DNA of 64,000 nucleotides, taken from Natrialba magadii ATCC 43099 (GTDB taxonomy: Archaea > Halobacteriota > Halobacteria > Halobacteriales > Natrialbaceae). The position numbers and the translations under genes were made by a program. The DNA lies in contig NC_013922.1 in the NCBI RefSeq assembly GCF_000025625.1, positions 2,666,001 through 2,730,000 of the forward strand, given 5' to 3'. The notes beneath the pieces are model-generated. The model had not been told where the DNA came from. It worked only from the letters and a program-made list of their open reading frames with translations, and searched no databases. This document shows positions 5,851 to 53,428 of this stretch, piece by piece (the stretch's first letter is position 1; the number at the start of each line of letters is the position of its first letter).

Positions 5851-6205
5851 TTGATCCATTTCCCATGCTGTTATATATGGGTATGGGGGCGAAAGCATCA
5901 CCTGAATAACAATACATAAGACTCCCCATTATTTAATATATAGTGATGTATTCTGCCTTTATTCATATACAATACACTTTAGGAACAATTAAGTTACATC
6001 ACCATGTATAACCGCCTATGGTTATGAAGGATAAGTTACCGTCCTCAATCCACAACGAAACGAGCATTGATAAAATGAATAAGAGAGCATTCATGTCTAC
6101 TCTTGTAGCAGCAGGTTTTTCTGTCGGGTCTGCCATATCGCTCTCTTCAGATAGCGTTGCAGCAGCTGAGAGAGATGAAGTACCAATTGTAGTCGGACAC
6201 CGAAC

Positions 6206-7264
6206 TATAGTAAAAGTTAGAAATAATTGCTCACTTTTGGTATAGAGATTTGGTCAAGAGCTGTATCAATCGCCGTTGTAAGATCGTCGAGTGACTCAAA
6301 GAAACGGTTGCTGAGAGCGGCTTGGAGTTGTCTCCAGCACTCCTCGACAGGATTGAGCTCTGGCGAGTACGCCGGTAACGTGACGAAGTCGAGGTCGTCA
6401 CGGGCCGCCAGGTCCGTGACGGCCGACGCCTGGAAATACGGCGCTCCATCCAGTACGATGAGCAGATCATCTTCAAATTCTTCACATAATGCAAGAATGA
6501 AATGTTTGGCGTGTTCGGCGGTTACGTACTCTTCGAATCGAGCGAAAAAGCGATCACCGTCTTCGGTGATCGCGCCCAGTAGGCACGTCCAGTCGCGTTG
6601 GCCGGATAATTTGACGGCCGGCCGCGTGCCGCGAGGAAACCACGCGGCACGCGGCTCGACTTGCACGGATTTTTTGGTTTGATCGATACAGACTACTGTG
6701 GCGTCCATCTCCCGCCGCTTTTTTTGAACTCTTCGCGGAAGGTTTCTTGCTCGTCAGCATCAGATTCGGCGGCTGTACGGCGTGGTTTTTGATAGCTCAA
6801 TCCCGCTTCTTTGAGCAACCGCCGGCAGCTCGGGATCGAATACTCGACATCGTACGTCTCGTCAAGATATTGCTGGACGAGCGCCGGCGTCCACGCCGGC
6901 GCGTCGATCCCGACTTCCTTGGGAGGTTCGTGAACGGTTTGTTCGAATTCTTCCTGCTGTGTTTCTGAGAGCTTCCGGTTTCTTCCGGATCGGTGAGCAT
7001 CAGAAACGGCTTGCTCAAACGGTTCGTCCGTATCGAGTCGCATGAGCCAGCTGTAGATCGTTCTTCGACCGGTGTCGTGCCACTCTGCAAGTTCGGTCTG
7101 CGTAACGCCGTTTTTGTACGCGATCGCCGCTAGTAAGCGCTGTGTCGGCTTGTTATCCTCAACCCTGTCGAGAGCGTCTTGGAGTTCTTCGACGGAGATC
7201 TCGTCGAGATGGTCCATTGACTACAATAACAATATCTGGGCGGAAAATTCTAACGGTTACTATA
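6206..7264 (-). mobile_element. IS630-type insertion sequence with TA target duplication
   Basis: The element proper is 6208-7262 (1055 bp). Its ends are imperfect inverted repeats: TAGTAAAAGTTAGAA on the left and TAGTAACCGTTAGAA on the right (complement of 7248-7262), 13 of 15 identical. It is flanked by the dinucleotide TA at 6206-6207 and 7263-7264, the target duplication typical of the IS630/Tc1-mariner superfamily. The transposase lies on the minus strand and fills nearly the whole element. The intact ends and clean duplication suggest a recent insertion. Confidence 0.9.
6217..7217 (-). CDS. IS630 family transposase, split into two overlapping frames
   Basis: The first frame (6693-7217, 174 residues) carries the helix-turn-helix DNA-binding part (TQTELAEWHDTGRRTIYSWL). 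The second (6217-6708, 163 residues) carries the DDE catalytic domain: VVCIDQT with the first Asp, VLDGAPYFQA with the second, and SPELNPVEECWRQL with the Glu. The frames meet at a run of seven A on the coding strand (complement near 6718-6724). A slip of -1 there yields EFKKKRREMDATV, the sequence expected for a continuous IS630 transposase. Either programmed frameshifting or slippage makes the full protein, or one A has been lost and the copy is dead; sequence alone cannot decide. Confidence 0.88.
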
Positions 7265-8414
7265 GCGGAGATCCCAATCAAGACGTTGAAAGCATTGAAA
7301 AAATGGTGCCAGCACGATGGTATGATAATCTCACAAAAGCCAGAAATGTATATTACGATTTCCTTAACGGAGATAACATACACAACCATCAATTATCGGA
7401 TGACAATGTCAAAGGTGTTTGGGTTTCCGCAGGCACAATTGATGGACAAAAGCCGTTTATTGAGATTGAATCGACTAGTGATGAAACACTTCCCTTAGGA
7501 TATGTAGAGTCCAATGGAGTACCCATAAAAGTAACAAATCTAGAACCAAAAGAGAAAGCAGAGGACTCAGATAAAGACCCAAATAAATCTGGTAGAACTG
7601 AGCCACAGTCCAATTATATCGGCGGAGGTGACCGCTGTGGGAACGGTGATGGATCCGCAGGTACACTAGCAACACCAGTATGGAAATCCGGAAACGCTTC
7701 GGACAGATACTTTCTAACATGTGAACATATCGGTGCCGAAATGTCCGATTTTGGTGATGAGTTATTTAGAACGGGCGGAGGGCTCTCAGAAGGGGATAAA
7801 CTGCACACTGGCGGCTCTTCCTTTTCATCGGAAATTGGAGAAGTGATTGACGCAAGTTGTTCTAATGACTTTGCAGTAGTTGATCCAGAAGATGGATACA
7901 CACCAGATTTCTCTATTAATGGTGAGTCAAGTCCTATTGTAGGAAGCATTTCCAAGGATGGCTTATCAGATATGGAGAGTAATGGAGAACAGGTGAAGAA
8001 ATCAGGACAAGTAACAGGAGTAACAAGTGGCGAAGTTAAGGCATACAATGGCACTGTTTTCCCATATCTAGGAACTTGTGGAACGAGACGTACTAACCAG
8101 TTAAGATGGGGTACAGAAGATGATTCCAAGGATGGTGATAGTGGTTCTCCAGTATATACTGATGAGTACACTTCTGCCGACGAGATCTTGATTGCGGGAG
8201 GACTTGATGGAGGTTGGCCGTCCTATGGCTATGTGGGGGACTATGCTTTTGGGACGGCAGCATATGTTCTTCATCAGGATTATGACTATAGATTCAGCGA
8301 CCCATCTTATCGACCACGGTCATAATACTGTTATTACAGAACTGACATATGGGATAGTCTTCTGGATGACTTGAGAACCGAAATAGTTAGTGACTTGTTC
8401 CTTACTGGGTGATT

Positions 8415-8668
8415 GGATGGCCTTCACCTAATCCGTAACTTGATCGTAGTTCTAGACAGTGTATCACACTACCAAGCGGCAACCGTCACGGACTTAGCGG
8501 CCCATAATGACCTGAGTTTGTCATGTTCCGAAGATATCAATATGAAGTAAATCCGATCGAAGAAGGCTGGAGACAACTTCAATAAGTACGTAGCAATCGG
8601 TTCCCCGACTCACTTCTTAACTCACAACAGCGATTGACTCTACTTTGATCAGTTCCGTATCAGAAACG
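8415..8668 (+). pseudogene. Decayed IS630 transposase, C-terminal remnant
   Basis: Frame-by-frame reading gives HLIRNLIVVLDSVSHYQAA, then TVTDLAAHNDLS, and after a frame change VNPIEEGWRQLQ, a stop, and SNRFPDSLL. These align in order with KHFILALCEEFEDDLLIVLDGAPYFQASAVTDLAARDDL, ELNPVEECWRQLQ and SNRFFESLDDL of the intact transposase in the neighbouring element. At least one frameshift and two stops are present, and no terminal repeats were found. It is on the opposite strand to the intact copy, so it is an older independent insertion, not a duplicate of it. It fills most of the gap 8326-8742. Confidence 0.75.
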
Positions 8669-8742
8669 GCGGGTCATTCCTAATGGCTGTTGCAATCTAT
8701 TGTATGGGAAGTATTAATACTTATTGAACATTTATATATGCT

Positions 8743-9378
8743 GTGATGGAGAAAGAACGAGTAGAAAAATATCGTACACTATTCCTAGGGTCTGATCCAA
8801 CAAATCTACAAACTGTGGTGATCTCTGGGATTACTTCATTTGTTGTTCTCGGAATCCTCTTTTCCCAATCAATCCAAAGAATGGGATTATCACAACAAGA
8901 AGCGTTTGATATGCCAATCATAGTTTATATAGCATTTGTTGTACTTATAGCAAGTTTAGTCGGACTACTTGTTGTATCCACTGGAGGAACTCGGCCTGTG
9001 ACGACGGGTCTTGCCGTAGGGTTTTTATCAGTCCTTGTCGTCTTTTCTACCCTCATTATATTAATTGAGATCGTTGAACTCGGTGCAGATGGTCTTGTTC
9101 TATTTGGTGTCTTCACACTGATAGGGACAAGTATTCTGGCAGCACATTCCAATAATGGATTGGCAATATGTTGGTACGTCGTTGCGATGCCGACTGCTGG
9201 TTTCCTGTCCCCAATTATAATCGGTGGAACCCCAATGGGTGACGGTGGGTCGGTACTCGGTGGGCTACTCGAGGGCATCGCGCTCGGCGTTTTGGTCGGG
9301 ATCGTCGTGGGTACCATCGGGTTCGCCCTTGAGAAATTGCTCACCAACATCGTCATCCGATGGGACAGAGGGGGTTGA
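8743..9378 (+). CDS. Integral membrane protein of unknown function
   Basis: A 211-residue protein with about six hydrophobic segments (around residues 23-41, 57-80, 86-110, 115-130, 138-160, 175-195) and a short charged N-terminus MMEKERVEKYRTLF. I do not recognise the family. A TATA-like ATTAATACTT about 27 nt upstream supports the start. The first 490 bases are AT-rich like the island, whereas the last 140 or so (from about 9236) suddenly show high-GC, C/G-ending codons as in the chromosome backbone. The reading frame is unbroken across the change. Confidence 0.7.
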   Translation: MMEKERVEKYRTLFLGSDPTNLQTVVISGITSFVVLGILFSQSIQRMGLSQQEAFDMPIIVYIAFVVLIASLVGLLVVSTGGTRPVTTGLAVGFLSVLVVFSTLIILIEIVELGADGLVLFGVFTLIGTSILAAHSNNGLAICWYVVAMPTAGFLSPIIIGGTPMGDGGSVLGGLLEGIALGVLVGIVVGTIGFALEKLLTNIVIRWDRGG

Positions 9379-9710
9379 GATAAATTCGAACGCTCTTCGG
9401 TAGTACTGCGGAACTGGCTCTAACAAGTGGATGGTCTACTCCGTTTTGCCGCAGTTCCGGCACTGCAGCCTGTAACTCAGGGATGAGAGCTGTTTGTTAA
9501 CACTCTATCCACCAGTCTACACAAGAGCGAATTCGAAAGTACCCTCATTATGGTTTTCTGAAACTAGTATCGTATCTAATAAGCAGCTAGGAGTCGGATG
9601 TAGTCGCGGCTTGCCAGCCATCATCAGATAAGTTCATTCAGTTCTGAGTAGCGAAACATGCCCCTGGTTCGCAACCTTCTTAATCGAATCCGGTGTCCAC
9701 ACGACTACAG
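9379..9710. other. Intergenic region before ppsA, with possible gene debris and TATA box
   Basis: No open gene is present. On the minus strand, 9386-9475 reads QCRNCGKTE, a stop, then TIHLLEPVPQYYRRAFEF, which looks like a broken short zinc-ribbon protein, but this is only suggestive. CTTAATCG at about 9678-9685 is placed to act as TATA box for a leaderless ppsA transcript starting at 9711. Confidence 0.4.
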
Positions 9711-12068
9711 ATGGCTGTACTCTGGCTGGACGAGATCAGCGCCGGCGACATCGAGAAAGTCGGCGGCAAAGGTGCCTCCCTTGGCGAACTTACCGGAGCC
9801 GGGCTCCCCGTCCCCCCAGGTTTCGTCGTGACCGCCGGAACCTACCGATCATTTATCGAATCGGCCGAGATCGACGAGGAACTCTTCGCCGCCGTCGACG
9901 TCGATGTCGAGGACTCGAGTGCGCTCGCGGCTGCGGCCGACCGCGCGCAGGAACTCATTCTCGAGACGCCGTTCCCCGACGAGTTGCGCGAGGAAATTCT
10001 GGAGTCCTATCGCGAGGTTGGGGACGGCGAGGCGTTCGTCGCCGTTCGCTCCTCCGCGACCGCCGAAGACCTTCCGGACGCGTCGTTCGCGGGCCAGCAG
10101 GAGACGTTCCTCAACGTGACCGAGGAGAACCTGCTCGAGCGCGTCCGTGAATGCTGGGCGTCTCTCTTTACGCAGCGTGCGATCTACTACCGACAGGAAC
10201 AGGGATTCGACCACTCGGCAGTCAACATCGCCGTCGTCGTCCAGCAGATGGTCGACGCCGAGAAGTCCGGTGTGATGTTTACCAGCCACCCCTCGACCGG
10301 CGATCCGACGATGATCATCGAGGCCGCCTGGGGACTCGGTGAAGCGGTGGTTTCCGGGGCAGTCTCGCCGGACAACTACGTCGTCGAACGCGAGGACCGC
10401 TCGGTCGACGTCACCGTCGCCGAGAAGAAGGTGATGCACGTCAAGGACGAAGAGACGGGCAAAACCGTCGAGCGCGAGGTGTCCCCAGACAAGCGGAACG
10501 CTCGCGTCGTCGACGACGACGAAATCGACCGCCTGCTCGACCTCGGCGAGCGCGTCGAGGACCACTACGATACCCCACAGGACGTCGAGTGGGCAATCGC
10601 TGGTGGCGAGGTGTACATGCTCCAGTCCCGTCCGATCACGACGATCGACGAGAGCGAGAGCGCACCCGATGCCGCGTCGGGCTCGGGTGCTGCCGGTATC
10701 GACGCGACACAGGGACTCACCGACGGCAGCGGCAGTGCTGCAGCTGCCGGGAGTAGCGACAACGGGCCCGATACCGGCTCCGACGACAGTTCCGGCGGCA
10801 TTCTCGTTGACGGCCTCGGCTCGAGTCCCGGCACTGTCAGCGGGGCCGCCCGAATTATCACGAAACTCGACGACCTCGACAAGGTCAGCGACGGCGACAT
10901 CATGGTCACCGAGATGACTATGCCCGACATGGTGCCGGCGATGAAACGTGCCGCCGGCATCGTCACCGACGAGGGTGGCATGACCAGCCACGCCGCCATC
11001 GTCTCGCGCGAACTCGGCGTCCCCGCCGTCGTCGGCACGACGAACGCGACGACCGTCCTGGAGGACGGCCGCGTCATCACGCTCGACGGCGACAAAGGCG
11101 CAATACTCGAGGGCCAGGAGGTCGACCCCGACGAGGAGACCGAACCCGTCGAGGAGGTCCGCCCGCAGTCGCCGGTCAAGCCGATGACCGCGACCGAGGT
11201 GAAGGTCAACGTCTCCATTCCCGAGGCCGCCGAACGCGCAGCCGCGACCGGTGCCGACGGCGTCGGCCTGCTGCGCATGGAGCACATGATCCTCTCGCTG
11301 AACCAGACGCCAGCCAAGTTCATCGAGGAAAACGGCGAGGACGCCTACATCACGGAACTCGTCGAGGGCATTCGCGGCGTCGCCGACGAGTTCTACCCGC
11401 GCCCCGTCCGAACGCGCACCCTCGATGCACCCACCGACGAGTTCCGGCAACTCGAGGGCGGCGCGGACGAACCCGACGAGCACAATCCGATGCTCGGCTA
11501 CCGTGGCATCCGGCGCTCGCTGGATCGTCCCGAGGTGTTCGCCCACGAACTCGAGGCGTTCCGTCGGCTCTACGAGATGGGCTACGACAACGTCGAGATC
11601 ATGCTCCCGCTGGTCAACGACGCCGAAGACGTTTACCAGGCCAAGCGCCTGATGGAAGAAGCCGGCATCGACCCCGAGAAACGCAAGTGGGGTGTGATGA
11701 TCGAGACGCCGGCCTCCGCGCTAGCGGTCGAGGAAATGGCCAATGCAGGGATCGACTTCGCCTCGTTCGGGACGAACGACCTCACCCAGTACACGCTTGC
11801 CGTGGATCGGAACAACGAGCACGTCGCAGATCGGTTCGACGAACTGCACCCCTCCGTGTTGCGACTGATCAGCGACGTGATCGAGACCTGTCGCGAGAAC
11901 GACGTAGACACGAGCATCTGTGGCCAGGCAGGCTCGAAGCCCGAGATGGCACAGTTCCTCGTCAACGAAGGCATTAGCTCGATTTCGGCGAACATCGACG
12001 CCGTGCGTGACGTCCAGCACGAGGTCAAGCGCGTCGAACAGAAGTTGTTGCTCGATTCGGTCCGCTAA
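9711..12068 (+). CDS. ppsA: Phosphoenolpyruvate synthase
   Basis: Makes PEP from pyruvate, ATP and water (giving AMP and phosphate), the entry to gluconeogenesis. The 785-residue protein has the usual order: N-terminal ATP-grasp-like nucleotide domain (VGGKGASLGEL, residues 15-25), the mobile swivelling domain with phosphorylated histidine H427 in GGMTSHAA, and a C-terminal PEP/pyruvate barrel (FGTNDLTQY, ICGQAGSKPEM with C737). Between the first two is a low-complexity Ser/Ala/Gly/Asp linker of about 55 residues (roughly 317-370). ATG 9711 is preferred to an in-frame start at 9693 because it begins the conserved strand and fits the TATA spacing. Confidence 0.96.
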   Translation: MAVLWLDEISAGDIEKVGGKGASLGELTGAGLPVPPGFVVTAGTYRSFIESAEIDEELFAAVDVDVEDSSALAAAADRAQELILETPFPDELREEILESYREVGDGEAFVAVRSSATAEDLPDASFAGQQETFLNVTEENLLERVRECWASLFTQRAIYYRQEQGFDHSAVNIAVVVQQMVDAEKSGVMFTSHPSTGDPTMIIEAAWGLGEAVVSGAVSPDNYVVEREDRSVDVTVAEKKVMHVKDEETGKTVEREVSPDKRNARVVDDDEIDRLLDLGERVEDHYDTPQDVEWAIAGGEVYMLQSRPITTIDESESAPDAASGSGAAGIDATQGLTDGSGSAAAAGSSDNGPDTGSDDSSGGILVDGLGSSPGTVSGAARIITKLDDLDKVSDGDIMVTEMTMPDMVPAMKRAAGIVTDEGGMTSHAAIVSRELGVPAVVGTTNATTVLEDGRVITLDGDKGAILEGQEVDPDEETEPVEEVRPQSPVKPMTATEVKVNVSIPEAAERAAATGADGVGLLRMEHMILSLNQTPAKFIEENGEDAYITELVEGIRGVADEFYPRPVRTRTLDAPTDEFRQLEGGADEPDEHNPMLGYRGIRRSLDRPEVFAHELEAFRRLYEMGYDNVEIMLPLVNDAEDVYQAKRLMEEAGIDPEKRKWGVMIETPASALAVEEMANAGIDFASFGTNDLTQYTLAVDRNNEHVADRFDELHPSVLRLISDVIETCRENDVDTSICGQAGSKPEMAQFLVNEGISSISANIDAVRDVQHEVKRVEQKLLLDSVR

Positions 12069-27992: not shown

Positions 27993-28997
27993 TCAATTCC
28001 GCAGTCGAAGCCTGAATTCCCTGTCAGCGCCCAGCCCGGCAATACCAGCACCGAACGCATACGCGACCTGCTGGGCACCCGTCCCTAGACGCGCCATCAG
28101 CGGCCGCTGGGGCTCGAACTCCTCGATCACGACCTCGTCCGTCTCGAGTTGGTCCGTCAGCTCGTCCTCGAGATCTCGTCGCGTGCCGAGCTCGTCGACC
28201 AGCCCCAGCTCGTGGGCCTCTTCGCCGAGGTAGATCCGGGCTTCGGTGTCGCGGACGAACTCGGGATCCATGTCGCGTCCGTCACTGACCCGGTCAACGA
28301 ACGTCTCGTAGTAGTCGTCGATCAGCCCCTGGAGGTACGCACGCTCGTCCTCCTCGAGTTCTTTCAGTGGCGTCCCGGCGTCTTTGAACTCGCCAGCGGC
28401 AAAGCGCTCGTAGGAGAGGCCGACCTTCTCGGCGAGGTCGCTGGCGTTGACGCGCGAGCCGATGACGCCGATAGAGCCGACGATAGAGCCGTCACGAGCC
28501 CAGAGTGCGTCACAACCGCTCGCGATCCAGTAGCCGCCGCTCGCACAGACGTCGTTGGTGTAGGCGACAGTCGGCCCGTCGAAGCGTTCGGCGGCGAGCC
28601 GAATATCGTCGCTCGGAACGACCTCGCCACCCGGTGTGTTCAGTTTCAGAAGGAGCGCATCGACGTTCTCGTCCTCGTCAGCGCGGTCGATCTGCTCGAC
28701 GATGTCGTCGGCCGGCGTCGACTGTGGCCGCGAGGGAAGCGGGCCACCGCCACCGCCGTCACGGGTGATCGGCCCCTCGACGGCAACTTCGGCAACGTTG
28801 TAGCTCGCGAACATCGAACTCGCGATGCCACTGATAACCTTGATTCCGAGGAGGATCACGACGAGTGCGATAACGAGTCCGAACAGATCCGTCAACGAAT
28901 CGGGATAGAAGACGAATAACCCGACGCTCAGGATCGCTACTGCTATGATTCCGAGTACGACCACGGCGAGCTGTCCGATCTCTCGCGTCTCAACCAT
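27993..28997 (-). CDS. sppA: S49 family signal peptide peptidase-like protein
   Basis: A 334-residue membrane-bound Ser/Lys protease expected to degrade cleaved signal peptides or other membrane-inserted peptides. Two hydrophobic segments (about 10-30 and 38-60) anchor the N-terminus. The catalytic serine S153 sits in CASGGYW and the general-base lysine K205 in GEFKDAGTP, the arrangement of archaeal and Bacillus SppA; GSIGVIGSRVN lies between them. ATG 28997 (MVETREIG) is preferred over a GTG nine bases upstream. A second S49 peptidase lies at 50319-51305. Confidence 0.9.
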   Translation of the reverse strand: MVETREIGQLAVVVLGIIAVAILSVGLFVFYPDSLTDLFGLVIALVVILLGIKVISGIASSMFASYNVAEVAVEGPITRDGGGGGPLPSRPQSTPADDIVEQIDRADEDENVDALLLKLNTPGGEVVPSDDIRLAAERFDGPTVAYTNDVCASGGYWIASGCDALWARDGSIVGSIGVIGSRVNASDLAEKVGLSYERFAAGEFKDAGTPLKELEEDERAYLQGLIDDYYETFVDRVSDGRDMDPEFVRDTEARIYLGEEAHELGLVDELGTRRDLEDELTDQLETDEVVIEEFEPQRPLMARLGTGAQQVAYAFGAGIAGLGADREFRLRLRN

Positions 28998-29348
28998 CAC
29001 AGACACCTCTGTTCATGTCGGTATCTCTGAGTGCTGTCCTGTTAACCGTTGTCGTCGCGTCTGCTGTGAGAGGGGGGACAGGAGAGCGGTGACACATCCA
29101 CGCGACAATGGAACAGGACAGCACCGTGACAACGGAAAACGACAAAGAGAAAAAAACCGCAGCGTTCTCAGCCAGTGACTGTTACACCGATCGCGTCTCG
29201 GCGTGTCTGCCACCACAGCAGCCGCTGTCTCTCGTCAGTTCTTCTCGCCACCATGCCGTCGTCCAACTGGCGCCCGTACTGTCACCAGTAAGAGAAACAC
29301 GCTCAACAGTACGCCGAGCGTGGGACGAATCGAGCGCAGACGACGCGC
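28998..29348. other. Intergenic region upstream of the S49 peptidase gene
   Basis: A 351-bp gap between two minus-strand genes. Directly after the stop of the coiled-coil gene, minus-strand bases 29333-29250 read IRPTLGVLLSVFLLLVTV, a plausible membrane helix, then a stop, but there is no start codon ahead of it. I see no other coding signal; the rest should hold the peptidase promoter. Confidence 0.4.
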
Positions 29349-30664: not shown

Positions 30665-31747
30665 TTAGAAGAGATTCTCGAGTCGGTCGTCCGTAAACTG
30701 TTCGATGTGGTCGGGTTCCTCGGTGTCCTGTTCGCGCTGTGCCTCGCGCGCACGCTCCATGAACTCCTCGATGCGCTGTGAGCGCTCTGCCCCACCGAGG
30801 AGGACGAGGGCACCGAGTCGGTCGCTCTCGAGTGGGAAGTCTCCACCCCGTACCTGCATGCTCCCGGTTTCGTCCTCGAGCCAGCGCCGAGACTTTTCGA
30901 CACCCTTGCGCGGGATTTTCTCGGGATCGCCGGCGATGACGAGCAGCGCGGAATCGGCTGTCGTCGCATCCGGAAGGCTCGTCCCGGTCAAGAGTGCCTG
31001 TCGGGAGACGCTCATCGCCGTCCGGACGTTCTCGGCGCTGTCGTCGCTTGCAACCTCGCTCGCGTAGCCGAGGGTCGCAATGCCACCGCTTCGCAGCGTG
31101 TTGATGACTTCACTCGAGTCAACCACGCTCTCGCCGACGCCCTCGGTTGCTTCGCCGGAGGCGAACAGGAGGCCGACGCGGCGGGCGATTTTCTGGTTGA
31201 TCGTCTTGAACGCCCCCTCGACGCTCTCGCCCTGCTCGTGCCAGGCGTCGTTGTCGATGAGGAGGGTCGAATCTGCCTCGCGGGCGAGTGTCTTCAGCGA
31301 ACGGCCGGCGTTGGCCTGGTAGAGCGCGCCTTCGTTGCGTCCCGGGAGGACACCGAGGGCGTAGACGGGGACGTCGTACACTTGCTGGAGGTGATGGACA
31401 AGTACCGGTGCGCCACCGCTGCCGGTGCCGCCGCCGAGCCCGGCGACGACGAAGATCGCTTCGGCGCTCGAGGTCACGCGACCATCCAGAGCACCCAACA
31501 CCTGCTGAATGTCCGATTGCATGACCTCGGTTCCGAGTTCGTTGTCGCCACCGACCCCGTGGCCGTTGACGCGATCGGCACCGATTAGCTGTGTGTCGAC
31601 AACATCGAGGGACCGAAGGTCGGGTTTCGCGGAGTTGACCGCCAGCGCGCCACGGACTGCACCAAAGCCCATGTCCGCATCGAATCGAGCGAGTCGTTCC
31701 GTGACCTTCCCACCGGCCTGACCGACTCCGATCAGGGCTACTTTCAT
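30665..31747 (-). CDS. CetZ family tubulin-like GTPase
   Basis: A 360-residue archaeal tubulin/FtsZ-superfamily protein of the CetZ group, which controls cell shape and motility in haloarchaea. The N-terminus MKVALIGVGQAGGKVTERL is the nucleotide-binding strand and loop, and the G-box GLGGGTGSGG is at about 103-112. The T7 catalytic-loop region and C-terminal domain are present, and the end EQFTDDRLENLF is acidic. The frame is open 18 codons upstream, but ATG 31747 gives the canonical start. It lacks the RYTLP-like tail segments of CetZ1 and is best seen as a secondary CetZ. Confidence 0.92.
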   Translation of the reverse strand: MKVALIGVGQAGGKVTERLARFDADMGFGAVRGALAVNSAKPDLRSLDVVDTQLIGADRVNGHGVGGDNELGTEVMQSDIQQVLGALDGRVTSSAEAIFVVAGLGGGTGSGGAPVLVHHLQQVYDVPVYALGVLPGRNEGALYQANAGRSLKTLAREADSTLLIDNDAWHEQGESVEGAFKTINQKIARRVGLLFASGEATEGVGESVVDSSEVINTLRSGGIATLGYASEVASDDSAENVRTAMSVSRQALLTGTSLPDATTADSALLVIAGDPEKIPRKGVEKSRRWLEDETGSMQVRGGDFPLESDRLGALVLLGGAERSQRIEEFMERAREAQREQDTEEPDHIEQFTDDRLENLF

Positions 31748-31935
31748 ACCGCTATCCTGTGAGTGCAAGGTGTTGAACGTTCCGGTGTGCGTACCAGTCA
31801 CTCTCCTTTCAATGGTCCATTGACTGCCAGTCAGTCAGTCATCTCGTACCGTTCACCCAGCAGTCAGCCAGTTATCGCGCACCGGTGCCATTGCGGATGA
31901 TAACCCACTTGTGGCCGCCCGCTGTCACTCCCGAT

Positions 31936-47920: not shown

Positions 47921-48060
47921 TACGTCGAGACGGAGCACGACACGAACAGAGCGCGAACAGAGCGCGAACACAAAACGAACACAAAACGAACACAGCACGA
48001 ACAGCGCCACCGCCAACCGAAGTGAAATCCTTTACCACCCGCCCACCCCATGTCGAAACG

Positions 48061-49230
48061 ATGATCCCCGGCGCGAGCGAGTACGGCGTCGAGCTGTCGA
48101 TCGATGAGCACGCAGTCGAGGACTTGCTGTCGGTCGAGCCCGACGACGTCGACTCGCCGTCCGAGCTCACGTTCGCGCGAAACGTCTTCGTCCCGCTGAC
48201 GACCGCGTGTCGGTACACCTGCACCTACTGCACCTACTTCGACGCACCTGGACAGGCCTCTCTGCTCTCACTCGAGGCGGTTCGAGACATCTGCGAGCGC
48301 GGCGCGGACGCCGGCTGCACGGAAGCCCTCTTTACCTTCGGCGACGACCCCGACGACCGCTACACCGAGATTCACGACCAGCTCGCAGAGTGGGGCTACG
48401 ACTCTATCCACGACTACCTGCGGGCCGCCTGCGAGGTTGCACTCGAGACGGGCCTGCTTCCACACGCCAATCCCGGCGACCAGACACGAGAGCAGATGGC
48501 CACCGTCGCCGATGTCAACGCCAGCATGGGCGTCATGCTCGAGACGACGGCCGAGGTCGACGCTCACGCGGGGCCGCGTCGGAAGGAGCCCGGCCAGCGC
48601 CTGCGCACACTCCAGAACGCGGGCGAGCTCGACGTGGCGTTCACGACCGGTATTCTCGTCGGCATCGGCGAGGACTGGCGCGACCGCGCGGAGAGCCTGC
48701 TCGCCATCCGCGACCTCCACGAGCGCTACGACCACATTCAGGAGGTGATCGTCCAGCCCGTGACGAACAACGAGCGCTGGACCGACGGCTCGCCCGATCT
48801 GGAAACGATGCGCCGCGTGACCGCGATGGCACGAGCCGCCCTCCCCGAGGAAGTCTCGGTACAGGTCCCACCGAACCTGACCGCCGCCGGCGACCTCGTC
48901 GACTGCGGCGTCGACGACCTCGGGGGCGTCTCACCGGTGACAGACGACCACATCAACCCGGACTACAGCTGGCCAGCGCTGCGGGAACTCGAGTCGATCG
49001 CGAGCGACGCGGGACTCCCACTTCGCGAGCGGCTGCCGGTCTACCAGCGATTCCTCGACGACGAACTGCGGACCGAGACGTTCGGCGGGACGCCCGCGGA
49101 GGACGGCGAGTGGATCTCGCCACGGATTCGGGCGGCGCTGACGGCAGACGACGCCGCCGGCGAGCGATATCGGGCGGTCCTCGATGGAACGGCGACGATC
49201 GATACGAAGGAGACGAACGTCTCACCGTAG
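48061..49230 (+). CDS. cofG: 7,8-didemethyl-8-hydroxy-5-deazariboflavin synthase subunit CofG
   Basis: Radical-SAM enzyme which, with CofH, builds the Fo chromophore of F420. The 389-residue protein has the iron-sulfur motif C50-RYT-C54-TY-C57 and the usual CofG sequence around it (FVPLTTACRYTCTYCTY), with EALFTFGDDPDDRY and GGVSPVTDDHINPDYSWP. ATG 48061 gives the conserved start. cofH lies 2.8 kb downstream on the other strand, not in the same operon. Confidence 0.95.
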   Translation: MIPGASEYGVELSIDEHAVEDLLSVEPDDVDSPSELTFARNVFVPLTTACRYTCTYCTYFDAPGQASLLSLEAVRDICERGADAGCTEALFTFGDDPDDRYTEIHDQLAEWGYDSIHDYLRAACEVALETGLLPHANPGDQTREQMATVADVNASMGVMLETTAEVDAHAGPRRKEPGQRLRTLQNAGELDVAFTTGILVGIGEDWRDRAESLLAIRDLHERYDHIQEVIVQPVTNNERWTDGSPDLETMRRVTAMARAALPEEVSVQVPPNLTAAGDLVDCGVDDLGGVSPVTDDHINPDYSWPALRELESIASDAGLPLRERLPVYQRFLDDELRTETFGGTPAEDGEWISPRIRAALTADDAAGERYRAVLDGTATIDTKETNVSP

Positions 49231-49278: not shown

Positions 49279-50322
49279 TCAGGGCTGACTCGTCGCCGCA
49301 CCGTCAGGATCGAACTCCCCCTGTTCTGGGGCGCTCACGTCATCCGCACCCTCGTCGGCATCATCGGGCGCACTCGGCGCTCCCGGCTCTTTCTGCCCGC
49401 CGACGAGGAACTCGAGTAGGTTCGCGATGAAGACCTCGTTGTCGGCGACGTTGTAGTTCTGACTCGACATGAAGCCGGTGTCGCCGACGGCGACCGTATT
49501 GTCGTGCTGGACGGCGACGGAGTAGACGCCGGCGTCGCGGCTCTCTGAGTGCTCGGCCGTTTCGCTCGTCTCGAGGAGCGATTGTCCCTCAGAGGCGACC
49601 TGTGTCGGGCCGTCGAGGACGACCTGGTCGACGCCGTCGGTGAGGTCGTTCTCGGCCGCTGGCGAGACATCGATCGTCCGGTAGTTGGTGCCAGGGCCGT
49701 CCATATCGTAGAGGTAGCCGGTGCCGTAGGCGATGCCGAGCGGTGAGGTCACGGCAGCGAACTCGCCCTGGCCGCCCGCGTCAGCCGCTGCACCACCGAG
49801 AAGGTCGTCGACGAGTGCACCGACACCGTCGCCGCCGGGACCGGCAGCGAACATGACGCGACCGCCCGCATCGGCGAAGTCAGCGACGGCCTCGGCTTCA
49901 CCGGTCGTGTACCGCTGTGTCGGCTCGGCGACGATGAAGGCGTCGGCCTCCTGCAGATCGGCGCGCAGGTCAGCCGGATCGTTCTCGGCGAACTCGTCTT
50001 CCAGTTCGTGGTACTGAACAGTGTGCCCAGCCGCTGTCAGCGCCGAGACGACGGGCTGGAGGTCGGCTTCAGAGATTCCGTTTCCGTGTGCAACGTCGAT
50101 GAGGATTGTCTGCGAGCCCGTCGAATCGAGCGCAATTTCGCCGCCGCGGTCGAGTTCGTCCACGTCGACCGCGTCGGGCTGGAAGTGCGCCTGATCGACG
50201 GTTGGCTTGGCCGTCTGGCCCTGATCCGTGACGAAGCCGGCCGCAGTAACCGCAGCGACCGAGAGGACGACGATGGTCACGAACAGCGCGAGTCGCGTTC
50301 GGTGGTCGTTGCCTGCGCTCAC
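49279..50322 (-). CDS. DUF4350 domain protein, membrane-anchored
   Basis: A 347-residue protein with an N-terminal signal anchor (LALFVTIVVLSVAAVTAAGFV), then a DUF4350 domain (TILIDVAHGNGISEADLQPVVSALTAAGHTV; DAFIVAEPTQRYTTGEAEAVADFADAGGRVMFAAGPG) resembling the GldG/glutamine-amidotransferase-like ABC-associated fold. It ends in a Gly/Asp-rich tail. Its start overlaps the stop of the upstream S49 peptidase gene by four bases (ATGA at 50319-50322), so the two form an operon. Function unknown. Confidence 0.85.
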   Translation of the reverse strand: MSAGNDHRTRLALFVTIVVLSVAAVTAAGFVTDQGQTAKPTVDQAHFQPDAVDVDELDRGGEIALDSTGSQTILIDVAHGNGISEADLQPVVSALTAAGHTVQYHELEDEFAENDPADLRADLQEADAFIVAEPTQRYTTGEAEAVADFADAGGRVMFAAGPGGDGVGALVDDLLGGAAADAGGQGEFAAVTSPLGIAYGTGYLYDMDGPGTNYRTIDVSPAAENDLTDGVDQVVLDGPTQVASEGQSLLETSETAEHSESRDAGVYSVAVQHDNTVAVGDTGFMSSQNYNVADNEVFIANLLEFLVGGQKEPGAPSAPDDADEGADDVSAPEQGEFDPDGAATSQP

Positions 50323-51305
50323 GGTGTCTCACCTCCCGCCGTCTCGGCCGACGCGTCCAGTGACGGCGTCTCCGCCGGCGCTGTAGTCGTATCGGCAATC
50401 ACGGATTCACCCTCGACGCTCCCCCAGAGTGCGAGAAACGCCGGTGTCGTCACGTCACCGTACTGGCCGAACGTCTGCGGGTGGACGTGTGGCTCTGAAC
50501 CCGCGTCGACCGACTCACCGCTCTCGAGTACGACTCCCGTTCCGAGCGCGGCCTCGCGTTCCATCCTGACGACCTCGTAGTCGTCGAGCCCGGCACGGTC
50601 TGCGGCCGCGCCGATTGCGACCTCGGTGTCACCGATTTCGTCTGCGAGTCCGTTCTCGACGGCCTCCGTTCCGATGTAGACCTTCGCGTACGAGAGTTCG
50701 CGCTCGGTGAGTTCGAGTTCGTCGCCGCGGTGCTCAAGTACAGAGCCGAGGAACGTCTGTTTCATCTGTTCGGTCTGGTCTTTGACCTGGTCAGCGGTCA
50801 TCGACCCCTTGTCCGGACCCGTCGTAACCTCGCCGTCCATCGGCGGCGAGTCGAGGTGTGTTGCACGAACACCGATGCTACCGACGGTCGAACTCGGACT
50901 GACGTACATCTCGTCCGTCGGTGCGCTCATGTAGTATGCACCAGAGGTGCCCATCGACTGGACACTCGTGACGACCGGCATCTCCGCGGCGGTTCGGTCG
51001 ACTGCAAGGTAGAGTTGCTCGCTCGCGGTCACACCGCCACCGGGGCTGTCGACGTCGAGAACGACGGCGTCGATGGACTCGTTCTCGCGGGCTTCTGCGA
51101 GGTCCGCCGTGATGTCGGCGGCGGATGCTTCGGTAATCGACTGGTCGACTTCGATAACGGCAACAGTGCCATCCGGACCGCTTGCGGCACCCCACGCGAC
51201 CGGTGCAAGCGCCGCACCAACGAGGAGGGCGACGACAACGACCGTCACGTATGACCGCGCGATCGCTCCGAGGCCATCACGAACGGCAGCGAGTATTCCT
51301 GTCAT
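50319..51305 (-). CDS. S49 family peptidase with N-terminal anchor
   Basis: A 328-residue membrane-bound Ser/Lys peptidase. One hydrophobic segment (residues about 17-40) is followed by the SppA core: VVLDVDSPGGGVTAS, serine S121 in GTSGAYYMS, GSIGVRATH, and lysine K166 in GPDKGSMT. It differs from the other S49 protein in having a single anchor and a C-terminal extension ending in a Thr/Glu-rich tail. It is coupled to the DUF4350 gene, which suggests a shared role at the membrane exterior. Confidence 0.88.
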   Translation of the reverse strand: MTGILAAVRDGLGAIARSYVTVVVVALLVGAALAPVAWGAASGPDGTVAVIEVDQSITEASAADITADLAEARENESIDAVVLDVDSPGGGVTASEQLYLAVDRTAAEMPVVTSVQSMGTSGAYYMSAPTDEMYVSPSSTVGSIGVRATHLDSPPMDGEVTTGPDKGSMTADQVKDQTEQMKQTFLGSVLEHRGDELELTERELSYAKVYIGTEAVENGLADEIGDTEVAIGAAADRAGLDDYEVVRMEREAALGTGVVLESGESVDAGSEPHVHPQTFGQYGDVTTPAFLALWGSVEGESVIADTTTAPAETPSLDASAETAGGETP

Positions 51306-51335: not shown

Positions 51336-51357
51336 TATAAAAATTCAGCTATAAATA
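51336..51357 (-). promoter_or_regulatory. Probable promoter of the S49-DUF4350 operon
   Basis: An AT-rich patch (TATAAAAATTC and CTATAAATAG on the plus strand, thus ATTTATAG on the coding strand) lies 31-52 nt upstream of ATG 51305. No other TATA-like sequence occurs nearby. Confidence 0.5.
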
Positions 51358-52048: not shown

Positions 52049-53428
52049 TCAGTCGTCCGCCGAAACACGGCGCTCATCGGTCGTGAGCAGCGGCGTTCCG
52101 TCTGCCTTCGGGCCGAGTTCGGGGCCGAGCGGTGGGTCCGCGTGCTCGGGATCGATCACGCGGCGCATCTCGTAATCCGTCGAGCGCTCGACCGGCACGC
52201 GGCCGATGGAGGAGATCATCTCGACGTACTCGCCGACTGAGCGGAACTCGCCGTAGCCGCCGCCGGCGCGTTTGGTGATTTCCTCGGAGAGAATTGTTCC
52301 CATGAAGTCGTCTGCACCGCAGTTGAGCATCTTCAACCCTTGTTCGTCGCCGTACTTGACCCAGGACGATTGGATGTGCTCCACGTTGTCCAGAAAGAGC
52401 CGCGAGACGGCGATCATCAGTTCATCCTCGTCGGTGCTTGCACCGCCGGTGACGACATCGTGTTCGAACAGCGGCGTGTTCTGGTGGACGAACGAGAGCG
52501 GGACGAACTCCGTAATCGCACCGTTGACGCGCTCTTGCAGGTCGCGGACGCGTTTGAGGTGCATCGCGCGGTGGGCCTCGTTCTCGACGTGGCCGTACAT
52601 GATCGTCGCCGTGAGCCCGAGGCCGACGTTTGCGGCGGCCGTCATCGCCTCGAGCCAGCCGTCTGTGGTGATCTTTCCCGGACAGATCACGTCTCGCACC
52701 TCGTCGACGAGAATTTCGGCGGCCGTGCCTGGAACCGTATCGAGACCAGCATCCTTGAGCCGGCTGTAGACCTCCTCGTAGGACCAATCCGTGCCGCGGC
52801 GGGCGTGGTAGCCTTCTTCGGGTGTCATCGAGTGGACGTGCACGCCGTCGACACTCATCGCCGAGAGCTGTTCGGCGTAGGTACCGGGAGCCGTCGCGTA
52901 GCGCTCTGGCGGCTTGTAGTTGACTTCCTTCGGGTTCGGGTGTGCGTCGAGAATCTCGAGGTGTTCCTCGTCGAGCGCGAACGCGGGGTGGAGCCCAGAG
53001 ACAGAGGTCACCTCGTAGATGCCGCGGTCGACGGCACCGGCGACGGCCTCGCGCGACTCTGCGGGCGTCTTCGTAAAGCCAGCCGTCTCGACGTCTGCAC
53101 CACGCTCGAACGTGTGTGCGGCGTCCTTGAAGTTACAGAACAGACAGCCCACGTTACAGGCCGTCGTCACGTTGTTGTTCAGGTTCGCGACGAAGGTGAC
53201 CTCCTCGCCGACAACCTCGGCCCGTCGCCTGTCGGCCGCCTCGAGTACCAACTCCTTTCGCGCCCGGTCGATCCCGTCGCTGTCCGACCCTGTGGTGAGC
53301 AACTCGATCGCGTCGTCGACGGTGAGTCGCTCGCCCGCACGTGCCTTCGCGAGCGCGTTCTCGAACGACTGGTCGGTTTCGGGAACGTGCTCGAACGCCA
53401 GATCCGCCTCGGTTACCGGACGCTCCAT
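52049..53428 (-). CDS. cofH: Fo synthase subunit CofH (5-amino-6-ribitylaminouracil--tyrosine 4-hydroxyphenyl transferase)
   Basis: Radical-SAM partner of CofG in F420 chromophore synthesis. The 459-residue protein has the iron-sulfur motif C91-NVG-C95-LF-C98 in VTTACNVGCLFCNF, and MTPEEGYHARRGTDWSYEEV, PGTAAEILVDEVRDVICPGKI, the usual CofH segments. There is a standard length plus a short C-terminal tail. It is separated from cofG by three unrelated genes. Confidence 0.95.
   Translation of the reverse strand: MERPVTEADLAFEHVPETDQSFENALAKARAGERLTVDDAIELLTTGSDSDGIDRARKELVLEAADRRRAEVVGEEVTFVANLNNNVTTACNVGCLFCNFKDAAHTFERGADVETAGFTKTPAESREAVAGAVDRGIYEVTSVSGLHPAFALDEEHLEILDAHPNPKEVNYKPPERYATAPGTYAEQLSAMSVDGVHVHSMTPEEGYHARRGTDWSYEEVYSRLKDAGLDTVPGTAAEILVDEVRDVICPGKITTDGWLEAMTAAANVGLGLTATIMYGHVENEAHRAMHLKRVRDLQERVNGAITEFVPLSFVHQNTPLFEHDVVTGGASTDEDELMIAVSRLFLDNVEHIQSSWVKYGDEQGLKMLNCGADDFMGTILSEEITKRAGGGYGEFRSVGEYVEMISSIGRVPVERSTDYEMRRVIDPEHADPPLGPELGPKADGTPLLTTDERRVSADD

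Follow-up and report, generated by a model that had tools for sequence, protein, structure and literature searches.

An S49 peptidase and a DUF4350 protein as a dedicated gene pair in Halobacteria: a candidate extracytoplasmic protease complex

The locus and its two proteins

The window, that is the whole analysed stretch of 64,000 nucleotides from Natrialba magadii ATCC 43099, carries an S49 peptidase gene followed on the same strand by a gene for a DUF4350 protein (Table 1). Both open reading frames were recovered with the coordinates given by the sequence-only reading. Their stop/start overlap, described there as ATGA, was read as GTGA, and ATG starts of DUF4350 were seen in many relatives.

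Table 1. Features of the S49-DUF4350 locus (positions are those of the window)
Feature	Position	Strand	Remark
S49 (SppA-like) membrane-anchored serine protease gene	50319..51305	(-)	328 aa, ATG start
DUF4350 protein gene	49279..50322	(-)	347 aa, GTG start
GTGA stop/start overlap of the S49 and DUF4350 genes	50319..50322	(-)	4 bases
Shine-Dalgarno site GGAGGTGA for DUF4350, within the S49 coding sequence	50329..50336	(-)	
TATA-like box TTTTTATA	51336..51343	(-)	31-38 nt before S49 start
Second TATA-like box TATTTATA	51350-51357	(-)	before S49 start
cofG (FO synthase subunit)	48022..49230	(+)	convergent downstream neighbour; outside the system
cofH (FO synthase subunit)	52049..53428	(-)	743 bp upstream of the pair; outside the system

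Archaeal TATA-like boxes were located in the window sequence 31-52 nt 5' of the S49 start, and in 79 relatives scanned for boxes of this kind none preceded DUF4350. The box TTTTTATA before S49 is likely the promoter of both genes. A tie to FO/F420 biosynthesis through the neighbouring cofC, cofG and cofH genes was considered and rejected on the grounds that in other lineages the pair is found in many different surroundings. Elsewhere in the window, positions 6001-10000 have a GC content of about 0.48 compared with 0.59-0.68 in the rest, possibly marking a mobile element or acquired segment, and two tubulin-family genes (CetZ-like, by eye) lie at 44445-45623 (+) and 30665-31801 (-), with MKLAMIGFGQAGGKI and MKVALIGVGQAGGKV near their starts.

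For comparison, the window pair was combined with 80 further pairs fetched with their flanks, giving a set of 81. The S49 protein matched Pfam Peptidase_S49 (PF01343) with 63 bits (cut-off 24.9) and did not reach the cut-off of the SppA equivalog TIGR00706 (109 bits vs 155.45). It consists of an N-terminal transmembrane (TM) segment, a catalytic domain at about residues 46-248 and a disordered C-tail. The Ser121/Lys166 pair previously proposed for it was found at these positions, in MGTSGAYY and TTGPDKGS, and both residues are invariant in 81/81 proteins and also in the wider set. In the predicted structure (pLDDT 81.5), the best Foldseek neighbour was B. subtilis SppA (E about 1e-16), with Lys166 falling opposite the position of its catalytic Lys199, which is alanine in the solved chain. 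Within the C-tail, residues 290-295 form a conserved aromatic/aliphatic island, which by analogy may be an autoinhibitory or docking strand, because the C-terminus of B. subtilis SppA is described as bound in its own active site in structure entry 4kwb.

The DUF4350 protein matched Pfam DUF4350 (PF14258) with 33.5 bits (cut-off 30.4), as did 69/80 relatives at E below 1e-3; ABC_transp_aux matched 69/80 of the DUF4350 proteins and the GIFT profile PF23355 matched 12/80. Its layout comprises an N-terminal TM segment, a flexible linker, a GIFT-fold domain at about residues 70-309 and an acidic C-tail. The model (pLDDT 85.8) was closest by Foldseek to the GIFT domain of IFT52 (5fms, 2e-10) and to Wbp1/OST48 (6c26_B, 1e-9), followed by class I glutamine amidotransferases. 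The protein is probably non-enzymatic because no catalytic-type residues are conserved in it, and no ligand site stands out because it has few invariant residues. GIFT domains are named after GldG and IFT52, and sugar binding by them is a proposal only (PMC7226087). The earlier description of DUF4350 as related to GldG holds for the shared GIFT fold and does not extend further: the GldG model TIGR03521 scored 18 bits against 390, the best Foldseek matches were IFT52 and OST48/Wbp1, and ABC transporter genes lie directly upstream of the pair in only 11/81 loci.

A single N-terminal hydrophobic segment preceded by basic residues was identified in each protein, and because of these basic residues both domains are predicted to lie outside the membrane. 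The membrane anchors proposed from the sequence were therefore recovered, and the exported location of the domains stands as a prediction. A second, canonical SppA-like S49 gene is present in the window at 27993-29006 (-); its product carries the dyad motifs CASGGYW and GEFKD and shares 28% identity with the paired S49 across 182 residues. The paired S49 also matched phrog_53, a phage head maturation protease family (E 2e-26). A phage origin was rejected: the match was read as the shared S49 fold, the protein has an N-terminal TM segment and its neighbours are non-phage, and a scan of viral contigs for close relatives returned none. A role as a defence system was likewise set aside, as PADLOC gave no match for either protein. 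SppA2 (HVO_1987) is one of the proteins enriched in vesicles of Haloferax (PMC10927574), but its orthology to the paired S49 could not be shown and a vesicle link was set aside.

Co-inheritance, translational coupling and range of the pair

The co-occurrence of the two genes was counted in 194 Halobacteria genomes with each protein used as query, S49 genes of this type being defined as matches with E below 1e-30. A total of 123 DUF4350 homologues were found, spread over 93/194 genomes, and 121 of them immediately follow an S49 gene on the same strand. Reciprocally, a DUF4350 gene lies directly downstream of 121/122 S49 genes of this type, so that adjacency of the pair elsewhere is the rule and not the rarity that would have spoken against a joint system. 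The remaining S49 genes, including that at 27993-29006 of the window, gave far weaker scores and no DUF4350 match as partner. Two or three pairs per genome are present in 29 genomes, and 12 of about 49 genomes of the window's own family have the pair. DUF4350 homologues also occur on four haloarchaeal plasmids, and on at least one of these an S49 gene is annotated next to the homologue. Since about half of the searched haloarchaeal genomes are without the pair, its task is dispensable; the patchy occurrence, the multiple copies per genome and the presence on plasmids suggest an accessory role, for example in antimicrobial-peptide resistance or surface-protein remodelling.

The 81 loci were further compared for their surroundings (INDEPENDENCE from synteny): they represent many different neighbourhoods in which only S49 and DUF4350 remain together, and because the neighbourhoods differ this widely, the adjacency of the pair is not frozen synteny. 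The cofH/cofG flanks were observed in relatives of the window's genome. Other recurrent neighbours are an ABC ATPase with an ABC-2 permease directly upstream on the same strand (11/81 loci, often about 76 bp before S49), SBDS (5 loci, often with a proteasome-like gene), a peroxiredoxin (6 loci) and a lipoprotein-like gene (7 loci, overlapping S49 by 4 nt in three). Function by neighbour association was rejected, as each of these neighbours is confined to a few related loci. The small lipoprotein-like gene, which has no Pfam match, lies directly upstream of S49 in L078, L079 and L086 (also L100, L101, L105 and L112) and is possibly a third component in one lineage.

Fidelity between the partners was analysed by a mirror-tree comparison, in which S49 distances and DUF4350 distances were correlated with r = 0.86. 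When partners were swapped among paralogous pairs within genomes, the mean r was 0.66 and 0/1000 permutations reached 0.86. At the level of these distances the result shows faithful partnering rather than contact, because linked genes share history.

The start of DUF4350 overlaps the stop of S49 by 4, 8, 10, 11 or 14 nt in 77/81 pairs. Among the four exceptions, the overlap is 20 nt in one, the genes of two more lie 1 nt apart, and the S49 gene of the last is split between two frames; in this pair (L131, G037) the split gene stands beside an intact DUF4350 gene, which would be explained by a sequencing error or by decay of the pair. Shine-Dalgarno sites were scored as a strict 5-mer located 4-14 nt before the DUF4350 start, with the expectation taken from in-phase windows of the same genes. 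Such a site is present inside the end of S49 in 74/80 pairs vs 2.8 expected. From the conserved overlap and the internal Shine-Dalgarno site, translation of DUF4350 is most likely coupled to that of S49 on one message, an arrangement that would fix the ratio of the subunits.

A phylum-wide search also detected the pair in the same order in two families of the phylum outside the class (L147-L151). In a Methanonatronarchaeales MAG, S49 and DUF4350 are joined in one 574-aa protein consisting of one N-terminal TM segment, an S49 domain that keeps the Ser and Lys, a linker, and DUF4350 without a TM segment of its own. The single TM segment is N-terminal and none precedes DUF4350, which places S49 and DUF4350 on one and the same side of the membrane. 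This fusion provides the strongest evidence at the sequence level for physical association of S49 and DUF4350, which we strongly infer. Together with the adjacency, the overlap, the internal Shine-Dalgarno site and the paralogue-specific partnering, it bears out the proposal of the sequence-only reading that S49-DUF4350 is a dedicated two-gene system.

Among bacteria, the pair was seen in one MAG, an Anaerolineales (Chloroflexota) genome in which S49 and a 965-aa DUF4350 protein are encoded 12 nt apart among bacterial-looking neighbours. The length of that protein (L157:4865-7762 (+)) is due to a long acidic C-terminal extension after the GIFT domain. Another DUF4350 partner (L146:4722-5993 (-)) carries a C-terminal plastocyanin/azurin-type copper domain (PF00127, E 7.5e-10), and a domain of this type on a DUF4350 relative is consistent with export.

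Proposed function and alternative readings

We propose that S49 and DUF4350 form one extracytoplasmic protease complex, in which the GIFT subunit selects substrates or controls activity, and we give this reading a probability of roughly 0.6. S49 would be anchored in the cytoplasmic membrane as an SppA-like Ser/Lys protease, probably an oligomer, whose active site faces outwards. DUF4350, made from the same transcript by coupled translation, would be its obligate non-catalytic GIFT-fold subunit in the same membrane. Most likely it would either bind and present particular surface substrates, possibly glycosylated ones if the proposal of sugar binding by GIFT domains applies, or restrain the protease in the absence of a signal, in the way that SppI restrains SppA in Bacillus. 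A bolder version, which we consider possible yet doubtful, is an ancient two-subunit surface protease whose GIFT subunit reads the sugars of glycoproteins (e.g. S-layer or secreted proteins) and delivers them to the SppA-type Ser/Lys protease. If true, it would constitute a glycan-directed system for envelope quality control or remodelling in archaea and at least one bacterial lineage.

An alternative reading is a peptide-resistance pair, with the complex degrading antimicrobial peptides (in haloarchaea, halocins) at the membrane and DUF4350 acting as inhibitor or sensor. The SppA of B. subtilis, which acts in lantibiotic resistance, is restrained by a membrane protein encoded in its operon (PMC7568657), and the patchy spread (12 of about 49 family genomes), the plural copies in 29 genomes, the plasmid copies and the ABC-2 exporters upstream in 11 loci would all fit. 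DUF4350 is, however, unrelated to SppI, and the range of the pair extends beyond Halobacteria to other archaea and one bacterium; we regard this reading as unlikely. The same 11 loci, with their ABC ATPase and ABC-2 permease genes immediately before the pair, could suggest an ABC-2 exporter module in which DUF4350 serves as GldG does for GldA-GldF and the protease processes exported cargo, and the ABC_transp_aux match in 69/80 DUF4350 proteins and the GIFT fold agree with this. In 70/81 loci, however, no such transporter lies directly upstream and the neighbours are cofH/cofG, SBDS, peroxiredoxin, lipoprotein and other genes, which makes the exporter module quite improbable.

The SppA-type fold and the dyad of S49 would also be expected of a second signal-peptide peptidase that clears cleaved signal peptides, with DUF4350 as an accessory without specific meaning. 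There is little to recommend this reading, as a canonical SppA-like protein is already encoded at 27993-29006 of the window, the score of the paired protein is 109 against the 155 of the SppA equivalog, and housekeeping fails to explain the absence from half of the genomes and the near-absolute partnership. That DUF4350 is the substrate of the protease, cleaved off the membrane, and not its subunit is compatible with the same predicted compartment, the coupled synthesis and the flexible linker between TM segment and GIFT domain. Since the fusion puts both in one chain and strict one-to-one co-inheritance suits a subunit better, we consider the substrate reading very unlikely.

Turnover of surface proteins in archaea is poorly known and DUF4350 is without an assigned biochemical role. 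The near-obligate and naturally fused link between a GIFT domain and a protease would give DUF4350 a direct, testable function.

Comparison with known systems

A literature search that mostly covered papers outside subscription returned no description of DUF4350 with an S49 peptidase. Within the same scope, DUF4350 and archaea retrieved only a prediction of the MoxR/vWA type (PMC5898192) and an unrelated paper, and the S49/SppA passages retrieved from a review on haloarchaeal membrane proteases name no such partner. In that prediction, the DUF4350 proteins of arCOG01314 have a signal peptide and a C-terminal TM segment and are encoded with a COG0714 (MoxR-type) ATPase and a vWA protein. They resemble the paired protein in their DUF4350/GldG-like extracytoplasmic domain and membrane anchor, whereas the latter has an N-terminal TM segment only, an S49 protease as partner and no MoxR/vWA. 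A C-terminal hydrophobic segment of the arCOG01314 type is absent from it, and no recurrent MoxR/vWA cluster was seen among the neighbours listed for the 81 loci. At L155, in the same phylum, a gene of DUF4350-like character stands next to one for a MoxR-type ATPase (by eye) and was noted as distinct from the pair. The predicted GIFT fold is shared with GldG/ABC_transp_aux, IFT52 and OST48/Wbp1, but the pair has no gliding, ciliary or OST context.

Among membrane proteases of the ClpP/S49 class with a dedicated partner, the stomatin-specific protease of the NfeD (PH1510) type is similar in this arrangement, with a weak sequence match. PH1510-type proteases have stomatin as partner and carry an NfeD OB-fold domain; in contrast, neither stomatin nor such a domain was seen in the pair.

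The closest functional analogue is SppA-SppI (YteI-YteJ) of Bacillus subtilis, in which SppI associates with SppA in a complex and acts as its inhibitor, and SppA confers lantibiotic resistance (PMC7568657). Both systems consist of an S49 protease with an N-terminal TM segment and a membrane partner in one operon. They differ in that the paired S49 falls below the SppA equivalog cut-off and in that SppI is an unrelated membrane protein, whereas the partner described here matches the DUF4350/ABC_transp_aux/GIFT families only. S49 membrane proteases with partners are known; what is new here is the type of dedicated partner, which suggests that archaea have a second, independent solution to the partner control of S49 proteases represented by SppA-SppI in Bacillus.
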